This document shows positions 22,991-27,685 of a stretch of DNA of 64,000 bases, piece by piece. This stretch comes from Clostridiales bacterium DTU070 (lineage in GTDB: Bacteria; Bacillota; Clostridia; DSM-8532): NCBI GenBank assembly GCA_001513105.1, contig LFSH01000070.1, positions 1 through 64,000 of the forward strand, read 5' to 3'. A program made the translations under genes and the position numbers. Below the pieces are notes generated by a model, which ran no database searches, was not told the origin of the DNA, and saw only the letters and a program-made list of their open reading frames with translations. The stretch's first letter is position 1. Every line of letters starts with the position of its first letter.

Positions 22991-24217
22991 ATGAAAAAAG
23001 TACAGTACTATCACAGCAGGTGGTTTAACAGATTACTGAAGTCCACTTTCGGGCTGTATCTGAGAAAACGGTTCAAAGTAAACATATACAATCACAAAAT
23101 ACAGAATATAAAACCCCCTTACCTGGTTATAGGAAACCATGTCGGAGCCTGGGATCCTTTTCTTATGTCCATTGGGATACCCGATCCTATTTATTTTGTT
23201 ATTTCAGATTCCCATTTCAGAAATTTCTGGCTGCGGCAGGTACTTAAATTAGTAGGCGGTATACCCAAAACAAAGCAACTGGCTGATTCTGGAACAATCC
23301 GCGCAATTATTTCAATAATTAAAAGAAAAGGCGTAATCGGATTATACCCGGAAGGCGCGCGCAACTGGGATTTGAAAAATGTTCCGGTTATTTACTCCAC
23401 CGCGAAGCTGATAAAAAGTCTTAAAATTCCTGTCATCAGTACTCTTATGCAGGGAGCCGGCCTTACAAGGCCAAGATGGGCAAGAAGTTCAAGAACGGGC
23501 ATAATAAATATGAATTATGACATTCTTTTGGAGCCCGATGAAATAAAGAAACTGGATGTTGACGATATTTACCGGAAAGTTGTGGACGGGATTTATCTGA
23601 ATGAATATGAATGGCAGAAGAAAAACATGATACCATTCAGAGGCAAAAACCTTGCGGAATACCTTGATCTGTTCCTTGTGGTATGCCCGAAGTGCAAATC
23701 CCTGTGTTCCCTTTACAGTCACGGCGATTTTTTCACGTGTAGGGATTGCAGCTATACGGTAAGATATGATGAGTATGGTTTTTTCACAACAGAGGATGAA
23801 AAATTCTTTGATTCGCCTCAAACCTGGAGTGAATGGCAGAATAATTATCTTTACGAATTGTTATCACGGGAAGAGTATAAATCAGGAAATGTCCCCTTGT
23901 TTACCGATACCAAAACAAGGCTGTTCACCGGTAAACGCAGGGGCAAACTGAGGAAATATAACTGGCTTGGAAAAGTAAAGTTATACTTCGACAGGCTGGA
24001 ATTCATACCTGAAAAGGGAGAGCGGTACTCATTCCCGCTTGACGAAATTACAGGCACGAATATCCAGAACAATAACAAGCTGGAGTTTTATTACAGGAAC
24101 ACCCTTTATCGTTTTAAGTTCACCACGCAGCACAAGTCTGTCTATAAGTACGAGCTTGCCATCAATATTATAAATAAAATAAAATCAGCCGCCCGGCCCG
24201 ACCCGGTTACAGAATGA
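22991..24217 (+). CDS. PlsC-type acyltransferase with C-terminal zinc ribbon
   Basis: 408 aa. Residues about 45-220 are a glycerolipid acyltransferase domain: NHVGAWD gives the HX4D catalytic motif and YPEGARNW the substrate motif. Residues about 232-265 form a zinc ribbon (CPKCKSLC, then CRDC). The last 120 residues are beta-rich and look like a PH- or GRAM-type fold (inferred from alternating pattern only). The start is ATG after GGGAGGA. The 3' end overlaps the convergent DUF3307 gene by 11 bp. The likely role is lysophosphatidate or lysolipid acylation. Confidence 0.82.
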   Translation: MKKVQYYHSRWFNRLLKSTFGLYLRKRFKVNIYNHKIQNIKPPYLVIGNHVGAWDPFLMSIGIPDPIYFVISDSHFRNFWLRQVLKLVGGIPKTKQLADSGTIRAIISIIKRKGVIGLYPEGARNWDLKNVPVIYSTAKLIKSLKIPVISTLMQGAGLTRPRWARSSRTGIINMNYDILLEPDEIKKLDVDDIYRKVVDGIYLNEYEWQKKNMIPFRGKNLAEYLDLFLVVCPKCKSLCSLYSHGDFFTCRDCSYTVRYDEYGFFTTEDEKFFDSPQTWSEWQNNYLYELLSREEYKSGNVPLFTDTKTRLFTGKRRGKLRKYNWLGKVKLYFDRLEFIPEKGERYSFPLDEITGTNIQNNNKLEFYYRNTLYRFKFTTQHKSVYKYELAINIINKIKSAARPDPVTE

Positions 24218-24962
24218 ATGACATGACAATTGCAAACAATGTGCTGAGAAGAGTTCCCATCAGATAATACTCTGCAAAGGATGCGTCCCTGGTGATTCTG
24301 TCGTACCGCGCTATGGATTTGGCGGTCAATACCAGCCCAATGGCAGAGTACTGCTTAAGAGAAATAAACAGTACGATAATGATTCTTTCAAGAGTCCCGA
24401 TATACCTTCCTGCTCTCCTGTCCCTTCCTCCCTTTTTGCTCTTCGGGGCAGGCTTAAAGCTCATCAGTAACCTGGAAATAACAATGTTTGCAGGCTTATG
24501 TACCGCCAGCAGAACAACCGTCCAGGACAGCAGATTTCCCGGAGGTATACCCAGGGTGTAAAGAAGATTTCCGGTAAATTCATTAATGCCGAATGAATGG
24601 CTTGATGTCACAAACAGGTAAGCTGCTGTCACCAGGACAAGCAAATGCAGCGCCTGATCGGCAAAAAACACATTCCGCTCATTACGTGCTGAAATACTGC
24701 CTTTCTTTTTTTTAGCCGATATGTACATGTATTTTATATAATCAATTGCAAAATGCAGAACAGCCGCTGCCGTGGAATATAAAAACACCGGCAGGGATAT
24801 TACCGGCAATGAAACAATCAGCATCGACAACCAGTACAACAACCCGTGCAGAAAAAGGTTCTTTTTGTCTTCAGTCTTCCTATAGGCCATTTTTTCGGTC
24901 TGAATGTAAAAATCTCCTAAGATATGCCCTGATACCATCAGCAAAAGATAATCCCTAAACAT
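24207..24962 (-). CDS. DUF3307 membrane protein (SatD partner)
   Basis: 251 aa polytopic membrane protein. The N-terminus HILGDFYIQTEKMAYRK and the AIDYIKYMY segment fit DUF3307, with a second half containing more helices and the conserved basic loop GRYIGTLERIIIVLF. The ATG overlaps the end of satD by eight bases and uses an AGGAGA site within satD, so the two are translationally coupled. DUF3307 genes are frequently beside SatD-family genes in Firmicutes. Function unknown. Confidence 0.82.
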   Translation of the reverse strand: MFRDYLLLMVSGHILGDFYIQTEKMAYRKTEDKKNLFLHGLLYWLSMLIVSLPVISLPVFLYSTAAAVLHFAIDYIKYMYISAKKKKGSISARNERNVFFADQALHLLVLVTAAYLFVTSSHSFGINEFTGNLLYTLGIPPGNLLSWTVVLLAVHKPANIVISRLLMSFKPAPKSKKGGRDRRAGRYIGTLERIIIVLFISLKQYSAIGLVLTAKSIARYDRITRDASFAEYYLMGTLLSTLFAIVMSFIL

Positions 24963-25635
24963 TACATCTCCTTATCCTGCTTAATATTTTCCCCACTTCA
25001 TTCAGTGCTTCCCTATAGGTATAATAGCTGCCGCCGCTAAGATGTTTCTGTAAGGATGATTGCCTGATTCCAAGCCTTTTCGCAACATTCGCCTGGGTAT
25101 CATCGTGTTCCATCATATCCCATATGGCTTCTCTCTGCCGGTCTGTCCATGAATTTTTAATTGCTGTAATTAGGGATGTCACCGTATTGATTAACTCAAT
25201 GCAAATACTGTCTCCGCCGTCAGTTTCAAACCGGATATCCGTTACAGCTGCTTCCTTTCTTCTTTCATTCTGGCGCAGAAACTCAATTGCCTGCCTTGCT
25301 TTATGGTATGCAGGCCCGTCTGCGCCTATGGACAGTTCAGGATTGATATCGGTAACAATATCGCCGATTCCTATACCGAACCTGATTTTTGCAGGATACA
25401 TCTTCCTTTCAATCTCGGTAACAATGGACATGAGATTCTTCCCGTCAAGCAGCAGCCCCTGAAACTCATCCCCCAAGGTAATTGTAAACCTGGAAGCTAT
25501 GTCCTGCGCGTATTTATCATTAATGCTCCCAAGAGTATTCCTTAGCTTTACCTGTACATCTTCCCTGTCTTTTATTTTCTTAGAGTTCCTGATATCCCCG
25601 ATAATGGCGATATAACTGTCTATATTCTGAACCAT
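24955..25635 (-). CDS. SatD-family protein: cyclase-like domain plus HTH
   Basis: 226 aa. Residues 8-110 resemble the class III cyclase/GGDEF fold by pattern: an acidic first strand (YIAIIGDIRNSKKI), a hairpin with GDEF at 55-58, then RFGIGIGDI and a GADGPAYHKARQAI stretch. Residues 163-200 form a helix-turn-helix (WTDRQREAIWDMM then NVAKRLGIRQSSLQKHL). Catalysis by SatD proteins is not established to my knowledge. The ATG at 25635 has GGGGGG nearby; the frame is open to 25674 but that crosses the predicted promoter. It is coupled to the DUF3307 gene and preceded by an array of direct repeats. Confidence 0.82.
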   Translation of the reverse strand: MVQNIDSYIAIIGDIRNSKKIKDREDVQVKLRNTLGSINDKYAQDIASRFTITLGDEFQGLLLDGKNLMSIVTEIERKMYPAKIRFGIGIGDIVTDINPELSIGADGPAYHKARQAIEFLRQNERRKEAAVTDIRFETDGGDSICIELINTVTSLITAIKNSWTDRQREAIWDMMEHDDTQANVAKRLGIRQSSLQKHLSGGSYYTYREALNEVGKILSRIRRCNV

Positions 25636-25662
25636 GCAATCCCCCCAGAGCCTTACACAAAA

Positions 25663-25691
25663 AGTATATAGCATCTATAATAAATAATCAA
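25663..25691 (-). promoter_or_regulatory. Promoter of the satD operon
   Basis: Minus strand TTGATT (25691-25686), 17-bp spacer, TATACT (25668-25663), about 28 bp before the ATG at 25635. The repeat array begins two bases upstream of the -35 box. Confidence 0.6.
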
Positions 25692-25692
25692 G

Positions 25693-25805
25693 AATTATTC
25701 ACTGTAGAGGCTATAATCATTAATTATTCGTCATAGAGGCTATAATTTGGAATTATTCGTTACAGGGGCTATAATAAATGGGTTATTCACGACAGATGCT
25801 ATAAT
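25693..25805. repeat. Four 29-30-bp tandem direct repeats upstream of satD
   Basis: Plus-strand unit AATTATTC, six variable bases, GAGGCTATAAT. Copies start at 25693, 25722, 25751 and 25781 (the last begins GGTTATTC), so spacing is 29, 29 and 30 bp. The GCTATAAT core is identical in all four copies, while the six middle bases vary (ending in A each time). A degenerate TTATTT continues near 25811, and CTATAATAAAT lies near 25675. The array fills the gap between the guaA terminator and the satD promoter. Confidence 0.9.
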
Positions 25806-25875: not shown

Positions 25876-25914
25876 AAAAACCCTGTAAACCTTTTAATAT
25901 CAAGGCTTACAGGG
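25876..25914 (-). terminator. Terminator of guaA
   Basis: Minus-strand stem CCCTGTAAGCCTT pairs with AAGGTTTACAGGG (one mismatch) around an eight-base AT-rich loop and is followed by TTTTT. It lies ten bases after the guaA stop. Confidence 0.85.
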
Positions 25915-25923
25915 CTAATCCCG

Positions 25924-27459
25924 TTATTCCCACTCAATGGTTGCCGGCGGTTTGGACGTAATATCAAAAACAACACGGTTTACACCGTTTACCTCATTAA
26001 CAATTCGGTTCGATACCCTTTCAAGGACTCCGTAAGGGATTTTGGCCCACTCAGCGGTCATAAAGTCCCGGGTGGTAACGGCACGGAGAGCCACTGTATA
26101 ATCGTAGGTCCTTCTATCCCTCTTCACGCCTACACTCCTCATACCTGTTAAAACAGCAAAATACTGGTTTATGGATTTGTTCAAACCGGCTTTTTCCAAT
26201 TCATCCCTGAAAATCTGGTCCGCATCACGGAGAATTTCAAGTTTCTCAAAAGTTATTTCACCAATAACCCTTACAGCAAGACCGGGACCCGGGAAAGGCT
26301 GGCGCCATACCAGCTGTTCGGGCAAGCCAAGTTCAAGCCCTACCTTGCGTACCTCATCCTTGAAAAGTTCCCTCAGCGGTTCAATTATTTCGCTGAACTC
26401 AATATGTTCGGGAAGACCGCCGACATTATGGTGGCTTTTTATTACTTCGGCGCTGCCTACCCCGCTTTCAATAACATCGGGGTAAATGGTGCCCTGGACA
26501 AGAAAATCAATTTTTCCTAATTTCCTGGCTTCTTCCTCGAAGACGCGGATAAACTCCTCTCCTACAATTTTTCTTTTCTGCTCGGGGTCGGTTACGCCTG
26601 CAAGGCGGCTTAAAAAGCGTTCCTGTGCATTTACGCGGATAAAATTCACATCAAACTGCTTTCTGAAAACTTCCTCAACCTGGTCTGCTTCGTTTTTCCT
26701 GAGCAGGCCATGATCCACGAGGATACATACAAGCTGTTTGCCAACAGCTTTATTTACCAGTGCTGCCGCAACCGCGGAATCAACACCGCCCGATAACGCG
26801 CACAGAACCCTTTTGTCGCCCACTTTCCTTTTAATTTCTTCAACTGATTCCTCTATGAACGAGGAGATTTTCCAGTCAGCCCTGCATTCGCAAATGCGGA
26901 ACAGGAAATTCCTGAGCATGTCTTCTCCATCCTGGGTTTCCAGTATTTCAGGCTGAAACTGGACACCGTACAGCTTTTTCTCCTCATTCCCGATGGCTGC
27001 CACGGCACAGTTGCGCGATCTTGCCAGAACCTTAAAACCATGCGGCATCACGGACACATGAAACGTATTGCTGAGCCAGCAGCTTGTTTCGGTGTTTATA
27101 TTTGAAAACAAATCATTGTCCGTTTCAAGCGCAATTTCAACCTTTCCGGATTCACCGCCGGATTCCTCCTCCACTTTGCCGCCAAGTTCAGTAACCATCA
27201 ACTTCATGCCATAGCCTATGCCAAGAATGGGTATACCCATTCCGAAAACGCCGGGATCAAACTCAGGCGGTTTTTCGGTTGTTGCAGAGTCTGATCTGCC
27301 GACAAGGATAATTCCCTTTGGATTCTTTGAGAGAATTCTGTCACAGGAAGCATTATACGGCATAACTTCACAGTATACATTCGCTTCGCGGACTTTACGT
27401 GAAACCATCTGGTTCAAGTTTTTCCCAAAATCAATAATTATTACGGTATCCTTATTCAT
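25924..27459 (-). CDS. guaA: GMP synthase with degenerate glutaminase domain
   Basis: 511 aa. The C-terminal synthetase part is intact: the PP-loop [14 protein letters not shown], the [13 protein letters not shown] block and the dimerisation end [10 protein letters not shown]. GuaA converts XMP to GMP. The N-terminal class I glutamine amidotransferase has lost its catalytic residues: the nucleophile motif reads GIGYGM (Gly82 where GuaA has Cys), the catalytic His is Gln169 (FQPEI instead of FHPEV), and the oxyanion GG-P loop reads VGRSDS. Free ammonia or another glutaminase must supply nitrogen. The start ATG has AGGAGG eight bases upstream. Confidence 0.93.
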
Positions 27460-27685
27460 TCGCAAGTCCTCCTTTCAGGGATGTAAAATATTCCCGTTTT
27501 AATATGATACGCAGGTCGGGCATTAATTAGTCAGTTCCTCCTGCATGAACAGCGATAATAAAAAGTATGCATAATTATGACAGATCAACAGATTCCTGTA
27601 ATGCTATGTAATTTAATATTCATATATTATAGTTTAAAACATTATCATGCGCAATGAAAATCTCTTTTTGTACCAAATGTTATGA

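Follow-up and report, generated by a model that had tools for sequence, protein, structure and literature searches.

Dyad arrays of fixed pitch precede satD–DUF3307 gene pairs and suggest an autorepressed cassette

Results

Gene layout at the satD locus

The window analyzed here is a stretch of 64,000 nt from Clostridiales bacterium DTU070 (contig LFSH01000070.1). On its minus strand it carries satD, followed by a gene for a membrane protein with a DUF3307 domain (Table 1). The start of satD was placed at the ATG at 25635, which follows a Shine–Dalgarno sequence (GGGGGG) and fits the position of the promoter; the ATG at 25674 chosen by the ORF caller falls within the promoter spacer. The initial annotation had described a TTGATT-N17-TATACT promoter in front of a satD gene translationally coupled to its neighbor. 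The promoter is present as described, and the two genes overlap by 8 nt (satD extends to 24955, the DUF3307 gene begins at 24962), as they do, with the identical overlap, in most relatives.

The terminator-like hairpin of guaA marks the boundary between that gene (25924-27465) and the satD cassette. guaA directly precedes satD in the relatives of the window and a few other loci (L021, L036, L048, and L074); since this order is not family-wide, it probably reflects inherited synteny. A sister species (G001) has kept the flanking genes, with only ∼440 bp and no satD between them; the idea that a decayed module persists there was dropped, as the sole trace was a weak match of 25 bp.

Table 1. Features of the satD–DUF3307 locus in the window.
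Feature	Position	Strand	Basis
satD, palm (cyclase-like) domain and C-terminal HTH, 226 aa	24955..25635	(-)	Pfam PF16264, 5.7e-52; AlphaFold; Foldseek
DUF3307 membrane protein, 251 aa, polytopic	24207..24962	(-)	Pfam PF11750, 5.9e-20, aa 7-123
C-terminal membrane domain of the DUF3307 protein	24210..24413	(-)	G..IG.LER ... AKS.AR ... EYYL.GTL.S; alignment
satD promoter, -35 TTGATT	25686..25691	(-)	Sequence; N17 to -10
satD promoter, -10 TATACT	25663..25668	(-)	Sequence; identical promoter in L021 and L036
Dyad unit U1 (distal)	25782..25805	(-)	Sequence and core pattern matches
Dyad unit U2	25752..25775	(-)	Sequence and core pattern matches
Dyad unit U3	25723..25746	(-)	Sequence and core pattern matches
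Dyad unit U4, 2 bases short of -35	25694..25717	(-)	Sequence and core pattern matches
Dyad unit U5, degenerate, ATTATTTATTATAGATGCTATATA	25665..25688	(-)	29-bp step from U4; counterpart in L048
guaA terminator-like hairpin, CCCTGTAAGCC...GGTTTACAGGGTTTTT	25876..25915	(-)	Read from sequence; conserved in L021

An array of dyads ends in the satD promoter

Four units of ∼24 bp (U1–U4) occupy positions 25694-25805 and follow each other in the direction of satD in steps of 30, 29, and 29 bp. On the satD strand, each is an imperfect 24-bp dyad of the form ATTATAGCC-N6-GTGAATAAT. Thus, the four direct repeats annotated at 29–30-bp spacing, ending two bases before the -35 box, were all recovered. Copies 3 and 4 deviate from the annotated consensus by one to three bases (GGGGCTATAAT; GTTATTC...GATGCTATAAT). 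The initial annotation overlooked the dyad nature of the units, the family pitch of 28–29 bp, and a fifth, degenerate unit (U5), which starts within the -35 box and extends into the -10 box. Since this degenerate copy of the repeat coincides with the promoter, satD is probably self-repressed.

The 23-nt core TTATTC-N5-AG-N2-GCTATAAT has exactly four exact matches in the window; when up to three mismatches were allowed, eight matches were found, whereas 100 shuffles gave 1.0 on average and never more than 4. In the 2.9-Mb genome, the exact core is confined to the array, and the remaining matches, all with two to three mismatches, are about as common as those of a reversed-pattern control. A genome-wide search found no clustered array sites beyond satD, and the idea of a SatD regulon was rejected on this ground. 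Identity of the array as CRISPR or structured RNA was also dropped, as nothing exceeded the gathering score; the lone match (CRISPR-DR25, E 0.38) lies inside satD.

The pitch of the array is conserved while its letters change

For comparison, satD loci were collected from a scan of genome contigs (80 loci) and from whole-genome searches, and the autocorrelation of 200-nt upstream stretches was compared with that of dinucleotide shuffles; upstream stretches of other genes at the same loci (379) served as controls. In the satD upstream regions, matches were clearly in excess at lags of 29 and 58 bp, and no other lag between 10 and 60 gave anything comparable. The cut-off was passed by 54 of 85 satD upstream stretches and by 6 of the 379 controls, and a stricter cut by 40 and 1, respectively. 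By this periodicity measure, about a third of the clostridial satD loci lack a clear array.

The two closest relatives (L021 and L036) retain the motif of the window, its promoter, and its position behind guaA. Absence of the repeat upstream of close satD homologs had been named as an observation that would speak against the initial annotation; it is present there, and the pitch is kept far beyond them. The half-sites, in contrast, vary from locus to locus: ATTATAGCC/ATTATTCAC in relatives of the window, ATGCAT, TTATGTA, ATTCG, or GCAACC in others. Direct repeats can arise by slippage, and the array might in principle be a functionless product of slippage or chance; a pitch that stays fixed while the letters change, together with control upstream stretches that lack it, makes this explanation practically negligible, and it was rejected. 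The same observations argue for protein binding, as had been proposed.

SatD–DUF3307 pairs on plasmids, in proteobacteria, and in archaea

The remote plasmid copies that were inspected come from Escherichia, Enterobacter, Salinivibrio, Sphingomonas, Agrobacterium, and haloarchaea. A pitch of 28 or 29 bp was the main repeat signal in eight of nine remote loci, haloarchaea included, and other lags between 24 and 35 bp showed nothing when direct repeats were summed over these loci; Segatella lacked a 28–29-bp signal. At five annotated loci, the DUF3307 gene has no neighbor labeled SatD, but the preceding “hypothetical” gene displays, by eye, the SatD plan (ITGDL..S, RGDSFQ, then a C-terminal HTH), with a weak Pfam SatD match or none. 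In Sphingomonas insulae, the dyads are located in front of the DUF3307 gene instead of the SatD-like gene, which marks the former as the controlled gene.

On the S. insulae plasmid, the SatD-like/DUF3307 pair adjoins a PycC/PycTM (Pycsar) operon (L174:1230-5177). On the mobilizable E. coli plasmid pEC34A (3,770 bp), a SatD-like gene of divergent sequence and a DUF3307 gene are the main cargo (L170:1792-3481); the pair is also found on related Klebsiella plasmids, with AACC..GGTT dyads at 29-bp pitch. The HTH (aa 157-220) of the pEC34A SatD-like protein (L170:1792-2469) matches the YlxM family (UPF0122) above its cut-off; YlxM is encoded beside ffh in the sat operon of S. mutans. The E. coli genome collection contained no close copies of the plasmid pairs, and a phage-borne SatD was rejected because none occurred in IMG/VR or phage records. 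In clostridia, the neighbors of satD are diverse and, in a raw tally, include a few defense models (JetA and DpdF). The Pycsar-adjacent copy and the 3.8-kb plasmids favor a role as cargo; the clostridial chromosomal contexts are neutral in this respect.

SatD is the predicted reader of the array

The initial annotation had proposed a self-contained unit in which the HTH of SatD reads the repeats. The 132 cassette neighbors represent 136 Pfam families and include no conserved third gene; since the neighbors differ from locus to locus, the cassette is indeed self-contained. SatD is the sole protein with a DNA-binding domain in it, and the array follows the module, so the SatD HTH is the predicted reader. 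Alternatively, the array could be read by a regulator of the host, and the assignment of SatD is itself inferred from sequence. However, the letters diverge while the geometry has been preserved in Bacteria and Archaea alike, which makes a binder that moves together with the module most likely; moreover, arrays are absent upstream of other genes at the same loci. We thus consider a host regulator very improbable and SatD to control, probably, its own membrane partner via the array.

Covariation between half-site and recognition helix is suggestive but fails correction for relatedness. A lysine or arginine at position 197 is associated with the half-site (p = 0.0008, uncorrected), the partial Mantel r is −0.18 for the HTH and higher, −0.22, for the non-HTH linker, and the tree-corrected pairs are too few for the test, with no significant covariation after correction. 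This lack of significance is the second point on the side of a host regulator, and the covariation is not counted here as proof of SatD binding.

SatD has a predicted palm domain with a conserved candidate nucleotide site

The window protein is a clear member of PF16264 (176.9 bits against a gathering cut-off of 29). Its AlphaFold model (pLDDT 86) consists of a palm domain and a C-terminal end in which helices 165-219 form a predicted HTH, which agrees with the cyclase-like, GDEF-containing N-terminal domain and the C-terminal HTH recognized earlier. The comparison with cyclases suggested at that time was made with Foldseek, which returned class III cyclases (probability 1.0, E ∼1e-4, target TM mostly 0.43-0.53); other matches were Rv2242 (the top one, with a low TM-score over the whole chain), Cas10, and a PycC. 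Invariant in 91 SatD sequences are D14, G55-D56-E57, Q59-G60, G87/G89/G91, D106-G107, and R114, a pattern suggesting that a nucleotide/metal site is probably kept.

SatD had no match to PF00211 at E≤1, and hhalign gave a class III cyclase probability of 1%, so that no profile–profile link was found. Among the active-site residues of class III enzymes, the two metal-binding aspartates would correspond to D14 and D56 and the transition-state arginine to R114, whereas the position of the ribose-binding asparagine is Tyr or Phe in SatD, the equivalence of the site residues being judged by eye. Given this exchange and the missing profile link, an enzyme activity of SatD is only a possibility. A 2016 paper on a cyclase-like protein, considered in this context, deals with DUF2652 and not with SatD.

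If SatD were an active nucleotidyl cyclase or NTP-condensing enzyme, its product might act on the membrane partner and elicit an abortive response, as in Pycsar, and the array would set the dose only. The cyclase and PycC structures among the fold matches, the invariant metal-site-like residues, the pairing of a cyclase-fold protein with a membrane protein, the copy beside a PycC/PycTM operon, and the copies carried as cargo by 3.8-kb plasmids would all suit such signaling. This reading is nonetheless unlikely in view of the absent profile link and the replaced asparagine (aligned by eye); moreover, neither window protein matched a PADLOC family at E≤1, and the clostridial copies are not visibly within defense islands.

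In some genomes, two adjacent satD genes surround one partner gene (L033/L034 in G021; paired matches in G223, G337, and G370). One is short (∼133-166 aa), leaving no room for an HTH, and the other long (∼266-298 aa); possibly, the two products form a heterodimer.

An unannotated membrane domain is the constant partner of SatD

The DUF3307 protein belongs to PF11750 (72 bits against a cut-off of 23), but the match covers aa 7-123 only, so that the C-terminal membrane domain lies outside the Pfam coverage. SatD and this C-terminal domain occur in the identical 27 of 391 genomes and in no others. The satD genes of Sphingomonas, Agrobacterium, and Natronosalvus are accompanied by the C-terminal domain alone, without DUF3307. 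Judged by its distribution, this unannotated domain, rather than DUF3307 itself, is the invariant partner of SatD. A nine-row alignment of it shows invariant G, IG, E, K, R, G, and L positions. The partner is modeled as an all-helical bundle (pLDDT 89); it has no fold relatives in the PDB, and no sensory domain was recognized in it.

Roughly a dozen broken or partial partner genes lie beside an intact satD (frameshifted or partial in L043, L046, L048, L056, L065, L070, L073, L078, L084, L102, L106, and L108), compared with 70 intact ones, in a tally of loci selected by satD of which many are metagenome bins and may contain assembly errors. This leans toward the view that SatD represses a harmful partner. 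Three loci (L066, L077, and L107) carry satD without a recognizable partner.

Discussion

We favor, with a probability of roughly 60%, the reading that satD and the DUF3307 gene form a self-contained autorepressed cassette in which SatD, bound to the dyads, represses, and the membrane partner is the output held low. SatD, probably as dimers, would bind the 24-bp dyads at their 28–29-bp pitch and would also occupy the degenerate promoter dyad, so that the operon is repressed. According to the model, its palm domain very likely binds NTP with metal; a nucleotide or a signal from the partner at this domain could then release SatD from the DNA. The cotranslated membrane protein would be a costly effector whose level is kept low; its role as output is suggested by the gene order, the dyads in S. 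insulae, and the strict pairing.

Some observations speak against this reading. About a third of the clostridial loci, and Segatella, have no clear array; U5 is degenerate in the window; and a dyad upstream of -35 also suits an activator. SatD might activate from the -35-proximal dyad (or activate at low and repress at high levels), and the membrane protein might act as a sensor, keeping SatD at the membrane until stress. Such a role would match the two-base distance between the last upstream dyad and -35, the many loci in which the array stops 50-60 nt before the start codon without a good promoter unit, and the sat designation in S. mutans, where the genes were named for acid tolerance. In many relatives, however, the promoter unit is well matched, which favors repression, and the membrane protein has no recognized sensory domain. 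In L048, ATTATTCACTCTAAAGGCTATATA comes after two direct units, and its half-sites also serve as promoter sequence; this arrangement predicts that a dyad binder can shut the promoter. Activation by SatD appears rather improbable.

For the autorepressed cassette, data from streptococci point in two directions. In S. pyogenes, satD is accessory (present in 71% of strains) yet essential (PMC11323703). By analogy, this pattern fits an antitoxin-like repressor of something harmful, a comparison taken from satD alone, whichever its partner gene. A nonpolar satD mutant of S. mutans, on the other hand, is reportedly viable, which speaks against a strict antitoxin.

A bolder version would unite enzyme and repressor in one SatD: nucleotide turnover or binding might free cooperative assemblies from the array and unleash the membrane effector, making the pair a cargo (defense or addiction) system of Bacteria and Archaea that is distinct from Pycsar, CBASS, and known toxin–antitoxin types. 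We regard this version as speculative and its correctness as doubtful.

SatD and DUF3307 are common annotations of “unknown” proteins, and the literature searched describes no function for the pair. The traveling operator is a first direct handle on it: the probe is defined, and both its binder and the target are predicted. The puzzle of an accessory yet essential gene in S. pyogenes becomes testable as derepression of a harmful partner. The C-terminal domain of the partner is a better marker of the system than DUF3307, and the archaeal copies indicate that regulator and operator geometry stay linked across domains of life. The family names are known; as far as the literature was searched, the operator system, the constancy of its pitch between domains, the use of the promoter as operator, and the unannotated partner domain are new.

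By sequence and by their usual gene order, the window proteins are ordinary members of the SatD (PF16264) and DUF3307 (PF11750) families, whose descriptions do not include the operator array, the promoter unit, or the C-terminal partner domain. With autorepressed toxin–antitoxin operons, the cassette shares a putative DNA-binding regulator encoded first, an overlapping second gene that probably encodes the effector, palindromes that lie both over the promoter and upstream of it, and the accessory-but-essential pattern in S. pyogenes; here, however, the regulator is a cyclase-fold protein, and toxicity of the second gene is what we infer. Pycsar (PycC and PycTM) likewise combines a cyclase-fold protein with a membrane partner, whereas SatD has an HTH and an operator of its own, and the membrane protein paired with it shows no relation to PycTM models. 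Regulators of the CdaR/PucR type, such as Rv2242, resemble SatD in that a GGDEF-like or palm domain is followed by an HTH. This likeness is in fold only, as SatD has no Pfam match of that type (GGDEF-like and HTH_30). In contrast to these regulators, SatD, a protein of half their size, has retained metal-site-like residues, comes in strict pairing with a membrane protein, and is preceded by an array of fixed pitch.
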